Of a stretch of 5,710 nt of DNA, positions 1,617 to 4,700 are shown in pieces (the first letter of the stretch is position 1; each line of letters begins with the position of its first letter). This DNA comes from Deltaproteobacteria bacterium. Lineage in GTDB: Bacteria > Desulfobacterota > Desulfobacteria > Desulfobacterales > JAFDDL01. The notes below the pieces were generated by a model. That model saw nothing but the letters and a program-made list of their open reading frames with translations. It was not told where the DNA came from and did no database searches. The translations under genes and the position numbers were made by a program. The stretch spans positions 1 through 5,710 of the forward strand of contig JAFDDL010000268.1 in NCBI GenBank assembly GCA_019310865.1. The letters run 5' to 3'.

Positions 1617-3116
1617 ATGGACGTTCAGTTGAAGAACAACCTGGAAAGACTGCGCAAGCATTCTGAAATAAATGGATATTACGGTGGTCTCACCAGCTTA
1701 TTCATGCTCGACGCCTGGACGGCCATCCCCCCCAAGGGGCGCCCCTACCGCAGTAAGATGTCCGGCTTTTTCGCCGGCGAGCAGCTCAGGCACCAGACCT
1801 CCAACGAGGCAAAGGAATTGATCGCGTGCCTCGAGGGCGTTGACCTGGAAGATGATATTCAACAGGCCATGCTTCGCGAACTCAAGCGCGAGTACGCGTA
1901 CAACACTGCCATTTCACCGGAAAAGATGGCCCAAGTGACAGAACTGACCTCCGAAGCCCAGGCCGTCTGGAAGGAAGCGCACGAAAAATCGGACTACAAT
2001 CTGTTCAAACCCTATTTGAAGCAAATTTTCGATTTAAACCGGGAGCTCGCTGATCTGATCGGCCTGGACGGCCACCCGCTCAACAGCCTGGCCGCCCGAT
2101 TTGAGCCGGAAATTGACGTGGAGAAGGTCGCGGCCCTGTTTGCGGATTTAAAAATCGGCATTATCGATCTGTTGGGAAAAATTACGGCCGGTGCTGCCGA
2201 TATCGACGACAGCTTTTTCCACCAGGATTTTGATAAAACCCAAGTTTTCGAATTCACAAAACACGTGGTTGAAACAATGGGCTACGACGCCCAGGCTGGC
2301 GGATACGGCGAAGTGCTCCATCCCTTTTGCGCTATGATCGGCCCCAACGACGCGCGAATCACCTCCAATTACAGCAACTTTAAATTCGGTGTCTTTGCCG
2401 GTATTCACGAGGCTGGACACGGCATGTACGGCCAGAATTCCGATGCAGCGTTGGCCGATACCGGCCTGTGGGGCGGCATCATGGGTGCGGTGCACGAAAG
2501 CCAGTCCCGGTTCTATGAAAATATTCTCGGGAAAAGCCGGGCCTTCTGGAGCGGATTTTTCCCCGAGGCCAAGCGCCGATTCGCTCAATTTGCTGATGTG
2601 GACCTGGATCAGTTCTACCGGGCGTTAAACCGCGTGGAGCCCTCGCTCAAGCGCATCACCTCCGATGAGGTGACCTACAGTCTGCACCCGATCATTCGAT
2701 TCGAAATCGAAAAGGAAGTCCTGGAAGATAAGGTCAGCGTCGATGAGCTTCAGGACGTCTGGAACGCCAAGTACAAAGCGTTTCTCGGCGTCGAACCGCC
2801 CAACGACCGCGAAGGCGTGCTTCAGGACGTTCACTGGTCCATGGGACTTTTTGGTTATTTTCAGAGCTACTCTTTGGGCAACCTCTATGGCGGACAGCTG
2901 TTGGCCCAGCTGAAAAAAGAGGTTCCCACGGCCTTTACAGAAATTGCCGCGGGTAATTTCAAACCGGTCAATACATGGTTTCAGGAAAATGTGCATGGGC
3001 CCAGCCGCGTGCTCACCCCGGACGCCCTGGTGAAAAAGGTGACCGGCGAAGAACTGTCCGCGCGCTATTTCGTGGATTACCTCAACCAGAAGTATTCCGA
3101 AATCTATGGGTTATAG
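1617..3116 (+). CDS. M32-family metallocarboxypeptidase (carboxypeptidase Taq type)
   Basis: A full-length 499-aa protein, which is the usual length for M32 (about 500). It removes C-terminal residues from peptides using a metal ion; known family members are cytoplasmic with broad specificity, commonly poor on C-terminal Pro. Visible hallmarks in order: LHPF (235-238); HEAGH (264-268), the HExxH metal motif with His264, His268 and catalytic Glu265; HESQSR (293-298), where Glu294 is the third ligand; IRFEIEKEVL (360-369); and the closing signature DVHWSMGLFGYFQSYSLGN (404-422). There is no signal peptide or membrane segment. The ATG is preceded by AAAGGA (1603-1608) with 8-nt spacing. It follows the membrane-protein gene by 42 nt, so probably shares its transcript. 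A long palindrome begins 9 nt after the stop and may end the transcript. All catalytic residues are present, so an active enzyme is expected. Confidence 0.96.
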   Translation: MDVQLKNNLERLRKHSEINGYYGGLTSLFMLDAWTAIPPKGRPYRSKMSGFFAGEQLRHQTSNEAKELIACLEGVDLEDDIQQAMLRELKREYAYNTAISPEKMAQVTELTSEAQAVWKEAHEKSDYNLFKPYLKQIFDLNRELADLIGLDGHPLNSLAARFEPEIDVEKVAALFADLKIGIIDLLGKITAGAADIDDSFFHQDFDKTQVFEFTKHVVETMGYDAQAGGYGEVLHPFCAMIGPNDARITSNYSNFKFGVFAGIHEAGHGMYGQNSDAALADTGLWGGIMGAVHESQSRFYENILGKSRAFWSGFFPEAKRRFAQFADVDLDQFYRALNRVEPSLKRITSDEVTYSLHPIIRFEIEKEVLEDKVSVDELQDVWNAKYKAFLGVEPPNDREGVLQDVHWSMGLFGYFQSYSLGNLYGGQLLAQLKKEVPTAFTEIAAGNFKPVNTWFQENVHGPSRVLTPDALVKKVTGEELSARYFVDYLNQKYSEIYGL

Positions 3117-3124
3117 GGAGAAGG

Positions 3125-3211
3125 GGGACGCCGTTTTGGGGGACGTTCATGCATAAATGCATAACTCTGGAGAGTTATGCATTTATGCATGAACGTCCCC
3201 CAAAACGTCCC
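3125..3211. repeat. Long palindromic element 1 (37-bp perfect arms, GGGGGACGTTC ends)
   Basis: Bases 3132-3168 and 3171-3207 are exact reverse complements over 37 bp around a 2-nt centre (GG). After a 3-nt bulge on the left (3129-3131), GGGA (3125-3128) pairs again with TCCC (3208-3211). The core contains repeated ATGCAT and the arms carry GGGGGACGTTC / GAACGTCCCCC. It lies between the stop of the carboxypeptidase gene and the 3' end of the convergent zinc-ribbon gene, so it can act as a two-way terminator. Its ends match palindrome 2 about 1 kb away, which marks it as a copy of a dispersed element rather than a plain terminator. No transposase is present. Mobilisation in trans by a Y1/RAYT-type transposase is a guess. 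Confidence 0.93.
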
Positions 3212-3425
3212 AATCCGGTATATATGCGGTGATATTGGTAAAATTGAGTTTTGCTCCGCCGCATTCCGAACATTTTTTTCTGGGGATTGCCGCTGTTATG
3301 ATATAGCCGCAGATCTCGCATCTCCAATCCGTCAACCCACAATTTGGACAAATATCCTCATCAAACCGTTTGGAAGCGCCATGGCCGCAATTCGTGCAAA
3401 TATATCGCGAATGGTTAAACCGCAT
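3183..3425 (-). CDS. Small double zinc-ribbon (rubredoxin-like) protein
   Basis: An 80-aa protein with eight cysteines in four CxxC knuckles: C10-C13, C26-C29, C36-C39 and C52-C55. This spacing fits two consecutive zinc ribbons, one from pairs 1 and 2 and one from pairs 3 and 4. CEICGYI (36-42) resembles a rubredoxin-type knuckle, so iron binding is also possible. The ATG is preceded by AGAGG and GAAAG purine boxes. It is the last of four minus-strand small genes, 23 nt after the preceding stop. The C-terminus is odd: about the last nine residues (from Trp72) and the TAA stop are encoded inside the long palindrome, so the native tail may have been replaced by the element. Zinc ribbons usually bind nucleic acid or protein partners; no specific function can be given. 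Cysteine conservation on this strand argues strongly against the opposite-strand frame. Confidence 0.8.
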   Translation of the reverse strand: MRFNHSRYICTNCGHGASKRFDEDICPNCGLTDWRCEICGYIITAAIPRKKCSECGGAKLNFTNITAYIPDWDVLGDVHA

Positions 3426-3448
3426 ATCGTCTTTCTACCTCTATCCTG

Positions 3449-3643
3449 TTAATTGTGTCTGACATTGCCCCCAGGCAACATGAATTTATTGCCATATTTT
3501 CCAGTAAAAACGAAGCCATTGGTTAACTTGCTAAAAGCTCTGGACTCTTTTATAAAAACATCCCGGCCCAAAGGATGGAAGCAAGACAGCCCGGAGGTGT
3601 GGATATAGATTTTTCGATGGATGTGGCATCTTTGTTTTATCAT
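3449..3643 (-). CDS. Small protein of unknown function (about 64 aa)
   Basis: Encodes 64 residues from the ATG at 3643, or 70 from an in-frame ATG at 3661. I prefer 3643 because GGCGG lies seven bases upstream, whereas the AGGA before 3661 is only one base from the ATG. The sequence is soluble, basic and probably beta-rich: RKIYIHTSGL (10-19), GRDVFIKESR (26-35), and NGFVFTGKYG (42-51). It has two cysteines (C6, C21) and several histidines. The residue make-up looks protein-like rather than random, and the order of genes (4 or 22 nt after the preceding stop, 23 nt before the zinc-ribbon start) suggests co-transcription. I do not recognise a family. The DNA here is AT-rich (20 G/C in 60 bases at 3481-3540) compared with the carboxypeptidase gene. 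Confidence 0.55.
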   Translation of the reverse strand: MIKQRCHIHRKIYIHTSGLSCFHPLGRDVFIKESRAFSKLTNGFVFTGKYGNKFMLPGGNVRHN

Positions 3644-3664
3644 CTGAAGTCCGCCCCGCATTTC

Positions 3665-3835
3665 CTATGTCTCAGATTGGTGATCTTGCGGTTTTTCCAG
3701 GCAAAGATCTCGCCAGGTGCAGTTCTCACGGCTGCAATGACTTTGAATTTCCGCCACAGCAAAACAGTCAGGGTCTTTCTCAAAACGCTGAATGCTTCTA
3801 ATAAGATGTGCTATATCAACATTGTCAGTAGCCAT
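3665..3835 (-). CDS. Small Cys-rich protein (56 aa), function unknown
   Basis: A 56-aa frame from ATG 3835 to TAG 3665, short enough to be missed by length cut-offs. It begins with a probable helix (DIAHLIRSIQRFEKD, 7-21) followed by a Cys cluster: C24 in DPDCF, C34, C39 in ENCTW and C45 in RDLCL, i.e. C-x9-C-x4-C-x5-C. The compact arrangement with a Trp-Arg between the last cysteines looks like a small metal-binding or disulfide-linked fold, and I have an unverified impression of similar CF...C...C-WR..C tails in small deltaproteobacterial proteins. An in-frame TAA three codons upstream of the ATG fixes this start as the longest. The ribosome site is weak (only ATAAG). Its stop lies 4-22 nt before the next small gene, which supports translational coupling. 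The longer plus-strand frame across it has no such signature. Confidence 0.6.
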   Translation of the reverse strand: MATDNVDIAHLIRSIQRFEKDPDCFAVAEIQSHCSRENCTWRDLCLEKPQDHQSET

Positions 3836-3889
3836 TTGTGCTTATCGTTATTGTCTGACTGTATAGGCTCCCGGTGCACTGCGCAGTAG

Positions 3890-3913
3890 AGAGTGCGACA
3901 ACATTCGCACTCT
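3890..3913 (-). terminator. Hairpin over the stop codon of the 64-aa gene
   Basis: AGAGTGCGA (3890-3898) and TCGCACTCT (3905-3913) form a perfect 9-bp stem with a 6-nt loop. It contains the end of the 64-aa minus-strand gene, since the TAG occupies 3914-3912. No T run follows on either strand, so it may be an attenuator or an mRNA-stabilising processing site within the cassette rather than a full terminator. Confidence 0.5.
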
Positions 3914-4106
3914 ATTTCGCCCAAATTGGCCCATCTTCCTGTCTGCGGGTTCTGTCCCGACGGCAAACCCATCCAACAACACTGATATGGGTATAGCCGT
4001 CACTTGGCTGCAACCTGCGGTCTTTATTACGGCGGTTTTGCGTGCTGTTTTTCGGGTCGCGGTTTGAATTTGAGTGCTGTTTGGGTAGATCTCGATTTGT
4101 GTACAT
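3912..4106 (-). CDS. Small basic protein (64 aa), function unknown
   Basis: A 64-aa frame with one of the best ribosome sites in the window: GGAGG six bases before ATG 4106. The N-terminal half is rich in Asn, Gln, Arg and Lys and probably disordered (NRDPKNSTQNRRNKDRR, about residues 15-31). The second half looks ordered: LQPSDGYTHISVVGWVCRRD (32-51), ending in a charged tail. It has one cysteine. A strongly basic tail plus a short ordered patch is compatible with nucleic-acid binding, but that is inference only. It is the first of the four minus-strand small genes and starts 32 nt from palindrome 2, so its promoter must overlap or lie beyond that element. CCCTAATAAAA just upstream of the ribosome site could hold a -10 region. 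I do not recognise the family. Confidence 0.55.
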   Translation of the reverse strand: MYTNRDLPKQHSNSNRDPKNSTQNRRNKDRRLQPSDGYTHISVVGWVCRRDRTRRQEDGPIWAK

Positions 4107-4137
4107 AGAAAGCCTCCGTTTTTATTAGGGTAGTAAC

Positions 4138-4197
4138 GGGGACGTTCTTCAGATTATAAGATTCTCAATGGAATCTTATAATCTGAAGAACGTCCCC
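4138..4197. repeat. Long palindromic element 2 (27-bp perfect arms, GGGGACGTTC ends)
   Basis: Bases 4138-4164 and 4171-4197 are exact reverse complements over 27 bp around a 6-nt loop (TCAATG). The outer ten bases GGGGACGTTC are shared with palindrome 1; the inner arms (TTCAGATTATAAGATTC) are unrelated to it. On the right the flank AAAATGTCCCAA (4198-4209) matches AAAACGTCCCAA (3202-3213) after palindrome 1 with one change, so the similarity extends beyond the stem and the two copies have the same orientation. It sits between the 98-aa gene (minus) and the start of the small-gene cassette (minus), so it can terminate the former and lies in the promoter zone of the latter. Confidence 0.92.
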
Positions 4198-4225
4198 AAA
4201 ATGTCCCAAAATGGGTCCATGAATC

Positions 4226-4240: not shown

Positions 4241-4537
4241 TCAGGCCGCCTTGATCTTGGTACCCGTTCCTATACTATGTGGGCTTTTTGTGTGCTTTTC
4301 CAGAATGCCTGCCAGATAATCGAGCCCTTTCAGGAACAATTCCCGATAATCCTGGAAGGCTTTATTGGTATCGGCTTGCCACTCGGAGTAAAGTTTGTCC
4401 AGACTCTGATTTCCTTTTTCGAGCTGTTCCACGAAAATTTCGAACATTTTTTCATTCTGTTTTTGGAAATGTTCATAATTATTAAATGCGGTTTCAAAAT
4501 GATCTCGGGTCGTGGAAAAGATGTTTTCGGATTTCAT
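4241..4537 (-). CDS. Helical, phasin-like small protein (98 aa)
   Basis: The frame is open upstream to 4657, but ATG 4537 is preferred: GAGGAG (4545-4550) sits seven bases before it, the upstream extension is low-quality sequence, and a promoter overlaps the longer start. The 98 residues are almost all amphipathic helix from about 8 to 82, rich in Phe, Glu, Gln and Lys (RDHFETAFNNYEHFQKQNEK at 11-30, SEWQADTNKAFQDYRELFLK at 51-70), followed by a basic tail ending KIKAA. No cysteine, signal peptide or membrane segment is present. This layout resembles phasins and other granule- or synthase-associated coiled-coil proteins of polyhydroxyalkanoate storage; that assignment rests on overall character only, and no PHA gene is visible. 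Other helical adaptor proteins would look the same. It has its own likely promoter and lies downstream of the two-component system on the same strand. Confidence 0.8.
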   Translation of the reverse strand: MKSENIFSTTRDHFETAFNNYEHFQKQNEKMFEIFVEQLEKGNQSLDKLYSEWQADTNKAFQDYRELFLKGLDYLAGILEKHTKSPHSIGTGTKIKAA

Positions 4538-4628
4538 GGGGATTCTCCTCTTTTTTGACAAATGGATTTTTTTTGGTGCTCCTGCCGGAAACACACAATG
4601 TCGATGATCAACTTTTCTTTGTCTGTAA

Positions 4629-4656
4629 TTTATATCGGATTCCGAATGTTTGTCCA
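4629..4656 (-). promoter_or_regulatory. Sigma70-like promoter of the 98-aa gene, with an inverted repeat in the spacer
   Basis: On the minus strand TGGACA (4656-4651) and TATAAA (4634-4629) each differ from the consensus -35 and -10 hexamers by one base and are 16 bp apart. The predicted transcript begins near 4622, giving a leader of about 85 nt. The spacer contains the inverted repeat TCGGA-T-TCCGA (4635-4645), well placed for a repressor. Seen by eye only. Confidence 0.5.
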
Positions 4657-4700
4657 TAGAGGCAGGGCTTTATTTTAATGGGGCAAACACCCATGGCTGG

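Follow-up and report, generated by a model that had tools for sequence, protein, structure and literature searches.

Two palindromes with common ends and different cores are probable gene-less dimers of terminal inverted repeats from TIRYT-type Y1 transposons

Some Y1 tyrosine transposase genes are flanked by long terminal inverted repeats (TIRs) that begin with GGGG-A-C. These elements are called TIRYTs or TIRtrons, and in the part of the description used here, copies of their TIRs are also scattered as singles, dimers, and clusters, with a common motif, GGGGWSAS, and a remainder that is specific to each type (Di Nocera, De Gregorio, and Rocco 2013, PMC3733652). Most TIRYTs have been equated with subclass 2.1 of the TnpA_Y1 transposases, which have an HUH/Y1 core followed by a C-terminal Bac_DnaA_C or HTH_23 domain; the sections of that study cited here report no REP-like sequences near subclass 2.1 genes and leave the role of the C-terminal domain open (Quentin et al. 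2018, PMC6006769). Repetitive extragenic palindromic sequences (REPs) and REPINs, as presented in the cited portion of another study, are non-autonomous inverted dimers located by genes, whose mobilization is ascribed to a Y1 transposase acting in trans (Nunvar et al. 2010, PMC2817692). Here, we analyzed a 5,710-nt stretch of DNA (the window) from a Deltaproteobacteria bacterium (contig JAFDDL010000268.1), in which two long palindromes have the same 10-nt ends and different cores. We conclude that these palindromes are probably gene-less inverted dimers of one TIR each, from TIRYT-type Y1/HUH transposons. TIRYTs, dispersed TIR dimers, and the DnaA-like domain are already known; the open-access literature that we searched held no report of the GGGGACGTTC family, of a two-part TIR with an 8-nt repeat, or of a link between the inner arm of a TIR and a DnaA-like domain.

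Palindrome 1 (3132 to 3207) has 37-bp arms (3132 to 3168 and 3171 to 3207) and a 2-nt loop, and palindrome 2 (4138 to 4197) has 27-bp arms (4138 to 4164 and 4171 to 4197) and a 6-nt loop. As the initial annotation had described, the arms are 100% complementary in both, and the right flanks of the two palindromes match. The fold z-scores were about −16 for palindrome 1 and about −13 for palindrome 2, with 0 of 200 shuffles folding equally well. With loops of up to 8 nt, the longest perfect arm was 10 bp in order-1 Markov controls (n = 60) and 9 bp in the window after removal of both palindromes. The tip GGGGACGTTC is on the plus strand at 3139 to 3148 and 4138 to 4147, and the opposite tips are on the minus strand at 3191 to 3200 and 4188 to 4197, where the plus strand reads GAACGTCCCC. 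Next to the left tip, palindrome 1 contains an 8-nt unit twice (ATGCATAA ATGCATAA, plus strand, 3149 to 3164, mirrored at 3175 to 3190), and palindrome 2 contains TTCAGATT ATAAGATT (plus strand, 4148 to 4163, mirrored at 4172 to 4187). These inner arms had been said to differ completely in sequence and in length. For the sequence this stands, with identity at 3 of the first 16 inner positions, but both arms match a single degenerate profile with a hidden 8-nt direct repeat; they are unlike letter by letter and similar in architecture. For the length it stands only in part, since the arms differ (37 and 27 bp) whereas the spans from one tip to the other hardly do (62 compared to 60 bp, with 42- and 40-bp cores). 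The gap in arm length arises because palindrome 1 pairs 7 bp further outward (CGTTTTG) and because the loops differ.

An additional, outer GGGAC is present 11 to 15 nt beyond the tip at three of the four ends in the window: at 3125 to 3129 (plus strand) to the left of palindrome 1 and, as GTCCC (minus strand), at 3207 to 3211 and 4203 to 4207 to the right of palindromes 1 and 2. Near other TIRYT ends, it was found in 13 of 199 flanks, duplicates counted. Its role is perhaps that of a target preference, or it perhaps marks stacked ends.

The ends of the window palindromes recur at Y1 transposons in other genomes. Y1_Tnp (PF01797) was matched in both sets of genomes scanned, in 21 of 24 and in 11 of 12, and many of the Y1 genes are flanked by inverted repeats composed of GGGGAC, four bases, and an inner arm; thus, Y1/HUH genes with the same ends, which the initial annotation had advised looking for, do exist elsewhere. 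For instance, the TIR GGGGACGTTCCTTGCAAATTACAAAT of genome G303 shares its inner arm with the gene-less palindromes of locus L066, and genome G002 carries two Y1 transposons (L165 and L166) with tips GGGACGTTC and different inner arms. The comparison of palindromes and TIRs covered 23 selected genomes that had both. Over 10 inner bases, the best palindrome-TIR match averaged 7.65 within a genome compared to 4.71 (standard deviation, 0.34) when the labels were permuted, and none of 20,000 label shuffles equaled the within-genome mean. A match of at least 8 of 10 was reached in 14 of the 23 genomes, compared to 27 of 506 cross-genome pairs. Cores can therefore be transposon-specific subterminal arms, and there is no need for the core rewriting, by template switching or by uptake of new palindromes, that had been proposed for the two window elements.

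To describe these TIRs, a 21-protein alignment was searched against 116 genomes of the order of Desulfatitalea (G001), 57 of which had a match at an E value of 1e-40 or better. Eighty further regions were added, and the 119 loci examined gave 96 open reading frames (ORFs) that passed the filter, 80 of them with a TIR. Seventy-eight TIRs were anchored, and 73 started with GGGAC, which is fixed by the anchoring, and had at least 25 nt. The TIR profile after GGGACG reads T, C or T, C or G, N, T, N, A, N, four A/T, T, N, A, N, T; the inner-arm profile with its 8-nt repeat was defined in this analysis and not drawn from the literature. Among 34 non-redundant inner arms, bases at an offset of 8 agreed in 48.5% of cases compared to 29.7% in shuffled arms (z = 7.4, 0 of 2,000), and offset 9 was likewise raised (z = 4.3). 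An 8-nt repeat was first suspected on inspection of arms, some of which (e.g., L165, L171, and L181) are within the tested set, although most of that set was gathered later. The window arms scored 4.40 (palindrome 1) and 3.88 (palindrome 2) on the profile, compared to a leave-one-out median of 2.0 and an upper quartile of 3.7 for known arms, and 0.8% and 1.3%, respectively, of shuffled window arms reached these scores. The TIR nearest to the arm of palindrome 1 agrees with it at 11 of 16 inner positions, and that nearest to the arm of palindrome 2, from transposon L265, agrees at 12 of 16. When all palindrome arms were pooled, the offset test was uninformative, as single linkage joined almost all of them; over 59 loose clusters, it gave only z = 2.4 for offset 8 and z = 3.1 for offset 9. 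The strong signal at offset 8 is that of the TIRYT set. A −35-like hexamer, TTGACA, is present in 33 of 78 upstream TIRs of relatives (arm plus 12 nt), and the transposase promoter may therefore overlap the inner-arm site and may be autoregulated.

The transposases of these relatives have the HUH/Y1 core and the C-terminal DnaA_C or helix-turn-helix (HTH) domain of TnpA_Y1 subclass 2.1. Y1_Tnp was detected in all 21 transposases scanned near these ends, Bac_DnaA_C in 11, and HTH_23 in 3. The C-terminal domain shares its fold with DnaA domain IV, with matches to 4er8 and 1j1v. Structure comparisons also listed proteins other than Y1/REP transposases and DnaA, among them tRNA-His guanylyltransferase and ribosomal S6; a single-sequence search for a direct structure match gave none. 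Across 77 non-redundant transposases, the inner arm varies with this C-terminal domain and not with the HUH domain. Inner-arm distance was associated with C-terminal distance after removal of the N-terminal contribution (0.295, 0 of 1,000 permutations) but not with N-terminal distance after removal of the C-terminal one (0.013, P = 0.40), and the middle region, given the N terminus, added nothing on the inner arm (0.03, P = 0.26). The same was seen in 38 closest-relative pairs, kept disjoint so that no protein was counted twice, where the partial rank correlation with the inner arm was 0.63 for the C terminus (0 of 5,000) compared to 0.07 for the N terminus (P = 0.36). The control was the 99 fastest columns outside the C terminus, with a mean column divergence of 0.78 compared to 0.75 for the C terminus. 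Against these columns, the 38 pairs gave 0.64 for the C terminus (0 of 5,000) and −0.07 for the fast columns (P = 0.66). Over all pairs, the C terminus gave 0.266 (0 of 1,000) and the fast columns, given the C terminus, gave 0.103 (5 of 1,000), so that a slight signal remains with the control columns in this version. The bases of the tip correlated weakly with both domains.

The association was also ranked column by column. The two columns that co-vary most with the inner arm, out of 293, are 311 and then 277 (L265 numbering), which align to D433 and R399 of Escherichia coli DnaA. Both are among the DnaA-box contact residues named in the cited part of the DnaA literature, namely, R399, P423, D433, H434, T435, and H439 (PMC7561715). 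The six corresponding columns rank 2, 24, 1, 15, 29, and 108, respectively; 0 of 20,000 random six-column sets reached their mean, and about 0.01% did so when drawn from the 77 C-terminal columns. The column ranking is exploratory, and the six-contact test was set up after 311 and 277 had been seen to rank first and second. For tip bases 6 to 9, the six highest-ranked columns all fall within the HUH domain, with no enrichment of the contact columns (P = 0.11).

Elements with the same ends occur in many lineages. At least 117 stretches in the genome collection, and none of the viral contigs, contain the pattern GGGGACGTTC-N20-50-GAACGTCCCC, and among the matches listed were, by record title, Deltaproteobacteria, Myxococcota, Clostridia, Collinsella, Aminicenantes, and others. 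Of 297 genomes drawn evenly from the phylum of Desulfatitalea, 10 had the exact-end form with 9-mer ends, compared to 1 for the reversed control pattern, and an extended tip, GGGACRTTTTGGGGACGTTC, was present in 0 of 291 genomes. As judged by eye, cores tend to be alike inside a genome and different across genomes. The initial view that such palindromes form a family in which the ends are constant and the cores vary is upheld. Elsewhere, pairing is often imperfect: of 129 distinct palindromes, 48 are paired throughout the first 10 inner positions. Some single pattern matches (e.g., L032 and L099) are almost unpaired and may be chance. Mismatches are absent from the first 15 inner positions of 12 of 72 long-core dimers, including both window palindromes, and of 15 of 55 left/right TIR pairs; such dimers may be young, or they may be products of fold-back copying. 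In Collinsella and Syntrophomonas-type elements (L002, L018, L105, and similar), GGGGACGTTC sits in the loop of a short flank-core stem, and three tested arms, one each of Collinsella, clostridial, and Syntrophomonas origin, scored below 0 on the profile. We read the Collinsella and Syntrophomonas elements as a different, second architecture around the GGGGACGTTC motif, and they were left out of the support for the window arms.

From these data, the following origin may be proposed for the window palindromes, whose own parents and mobility we infer. Each would be a non-autonomous inverted dimer, similar to a miniature inverted-repeat transposable element or a REPIN, that arose from a single TIR of a TIRYT-type transposon. 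The outer part of such a TIR would be the GGGGACG(TTC) tip, common to many transposons and probably recognized and cut by the HUH domain, as kinship with TnpA_REP suggests. The inner part, of about 16 nt, would consist of two degenerate half-sites 8 nt apart, would be specific to the transposon, and would probably be bound by the DnaA-domain-IV-like HTH at the C terminus of the transposase, as the co-variation suggests. A gene-less inverted pair of TIRs that can be used in trans would then appear as a palindrome. Pairing would be kept in each palindrome because both arms stem from one TIR sequence, a single parent having passed on its two nearly identical TIRs, and cores could differ because the parent transposons differ. 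Parents with different C-terminal domains would thus leave palindromes with one tip and different cores, and the two in the window would come from two transposon subfamilies with like tips and unlike inner arms. The initial annotation had allowed that they might be just two subfamilies of a known element, and in kind this is largely what emerged. In the host, the parental Y1 genes would be expected to bear the flanks GGGGACGTTC + ATGCATAAATGCAT and GGGGACGTTC + TTCAGATTATAAGATT.

A further step, which we advance tentatively and at slightly less than an even chance, is that the transposase reads its ends twice. The HUH domain would read the GGGGACG tip, and a captured DnaA domain IV would read the inner arm as a duplex, at two half-sites 8 nt apart, with the same residues that DnaA uses to read its boxes. 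Since such a DnaA-like reader requires double-stranded DNA and the HUH reaction requires single strands, the inner arm would then have to be able to pair with its inverse copy. If true, this would account for the presence of TIRs in these Y1 elements, unlike IS200/IS605, and for palindromic miniature derivatives whose cores can vary freely along with the domain while remaining paired. It would also be a case in which a replication initiator's DNA-binding domain serves anew to give a single-strand transposase its specificity. The model offers an origin for palindromes in which paired cores are interchangeable between fixed ends, and it links the core to a protein domain. It names candidate contact residues, 277 and 311, along with their DNA partner, and in this way the role of the DnaA-like domain, left open in the cited sections of the 2018 study (Quentin et al., PMC6006769), becomes testable.

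Other origins of the pattern were weighed. Under the proposal of the initial annotation, hairpin template switching, or the acquisition of a new palindrome between the fixed ends, would have exchanged the whole core of a single ancestral palindrome. Genome G464 would fit this, recalling within one genome the pattern first noted in the window: three core types with the same ends occur together, all paired, and the six copies compared show 71 differences in both arms compared to 5 in one arm, yet only one Y1 match was found there. The lack of mismatches in both window dimers, as in the 12 of 72, would also fit. However, cores equal or nearly equal a resident Y1 TIR arm in the 14 genomes given above and therefore pre-exist as transposon ends, and free rewriting would not give inner arms that obey one profile and follow the C-terminal domain; we regard such rewriting as improbable. 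G464 is also rich in copies, with at least 100 BLAST matches to one element when both strands and single arms are counted. A variant of the TIR-dimer origin, concerning only how the pairing arose, is that a single TIR is duplicated in inverted orientation, through snap-back copying of single-stranded DNA, and that the dimers born in this way then move or remain in place. In several dimers (palindrome 1 of the window, L054, L066, and L088), pairing is perfect nearly up to the center and the loops are tiny, and in L066 the pairing extends past the TIR common to both ends of the resident transposon. But most dimers have unpaired, copy-specific centers of 11 to 26 nt, and pairing is unbroken over 17 inner positions or up to the loop in only 15 of the 129 distinct palindromes, so that we consider this birth rather unlikely.

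The palindromes could also be classical REPs or REPINs, which Bertels and Rainey reportedly treated together with RAYTs in 2011, served by a canonical RAYT. The dimers do lie near gene ends, and the NCBIfam model REP_Tyr_transpos (NF047646) scored 10 of the transposases, 1 above the cutoff and 9 below it. The comparison with REPs and RAYTs made at the outset was close, but the classical features are absent: the palindromes lack the short GC-rich stem with its GT[AG]G foot, and the transposases nearby mostly have an extra C-terminal HTH (Bac_DnaA_C or HTH_23 in 14 of 21). This makes a classical REP origin highly improbable. Finally, unrelated terminators or other RNA or DNA hairpins might stand at gene ends and have common ends by chance or by function. 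Palindrome 1 begins 15 nt past a stop codon, that of the M32 carboxypeptidase gene, and palindrome 2 lies 43 nt from the ORF at 4241 to 4657, so that an effect on transcripts is possible as a by-product. This account is scarcely credible, since it leaves unexplained a 10-nt end that is common to many lineages and present at the tips of Y1 transposons, and an Rfam search gave no match at the gathering score.

Several observations weigh against an origin of the window palindromes as TIR dimers of TIRYT-type transposons. A Pfam scan of the ten window ORF proteins gave no transposase match above the cutoff and no Y1 gene. The window tips (GGGGACGT) fit GGGGWSAS in the first six letters and fail in the last two. 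The wider TIR group departs from the motif likewise, position 6 being G in 71 of the 73 TIRs starting with GGGAC, and therefore the window elements are filed as a TIRYT variant. The palindrome-TIR match was below 8 of 10 in 9 of the 23 genomes (G001, G002, G065, G298, G305, G306, G314, G573, and G592), and genomes without a usable TIR were excluded from that set. Differences between copies are mostly one-armed in G377 (12 in both arms compared to 26 in one) and in G592 (2 compared to 11). One G464 copy was compared in four genomes, where the flank match stopped at the contig edge and showed no empty site. On the protein side, the Mantel-type tests do not fully remove shared ancestry, one control keeps the small signal of 0.103, and 11 of the top 20 arm-linked columns are in the N-terminal domain. 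With these points counted, we still favor the TIR-dimer origin; for the cutting of the tip and the binding of the inner arm as a duplex, we speak by inference.

The M32 carboxypeptidase gene upstream of palindrome 1 spans 1617 to 3116, and the closest organism-named relative of its protein is from a Deltaproteobacteria metagenome-assembled genome (71% over 76% of the protein), which makes a host within the Desulfobacterota probable. An M32 peptidase with 90% identity is encoded on a JGI contig. A rubredoxin-like zinc-ribbon ORF (3183 to 3425, minus strand; RUBY_RBDX, E = 6.8e-9) takes its final residues and stop codon from the right end of palindrome 1, and the 3′ end of this gene thus appears, from the sequence, to have been rewritten by the element. 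The ORF at 4241 to 4657 is on the minus strand, with palindrome 2 beyond its 3′ end. Between the palindromes is a 56-amino-acid ORF (3665 to 3835, minus strand) with a cysteine-rich end (CTWRDLC), which may be a real small gene. At 1051 to 1102, ahead of the ORF at 1134, is a 4-fold, tandem-like 13-nt repeat of the TATTTATCTATTG type.

Compared to the known systems, as far as the cited parts of their descriptions go, the window elements differ from IS200/IS605 (IS608 and ISDra2), which lack TIRs (PMC2817692) and, unlike the TIRYT-type elements here, also lack the DnaA-like domain. They share the CGTC tag, contained in GAACGTCCCC, with the CGTC-tagged REPs, short palindromes that occur mostly as inverted dimers, with stems of 8 to 9 bp and a CCA-like tail, and for which no transposase is known (Di Nocera et al. 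2013, PMC3733652). Membership in that group was rejected, since it needs an 8- to 9-bp stem, a 4- to 5-nt loop, and a CCA-type tail, whereas the window palindromes have arms of 27 and 37 bp and loops of 6 and 2 nt. With REPs and REPINs, they share the form of non-autonomous inverted dimers adjoining genes, but they have perfect long arms, and the transposases of the relatives have a DnaA-like C terminus; membership was rejected here as well, since no GT[AG]G tetranucleotide is at the foot of the stem and both elements begin with GGGGACGTTC. With the subclass 2.1 transposases, the difference is that here dispersed palindromes match the TIRs and the inner arm co-varies with the C-terminal domain. 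The likeness is closest to TIRYTs, which have Y1 genes with GGGG-A-C TIRs and dispersed TIR dimers, and the difference is that the TIR here splits into a tip and an inner arm, whose 8-nt repeat follows the C-terminal domain.
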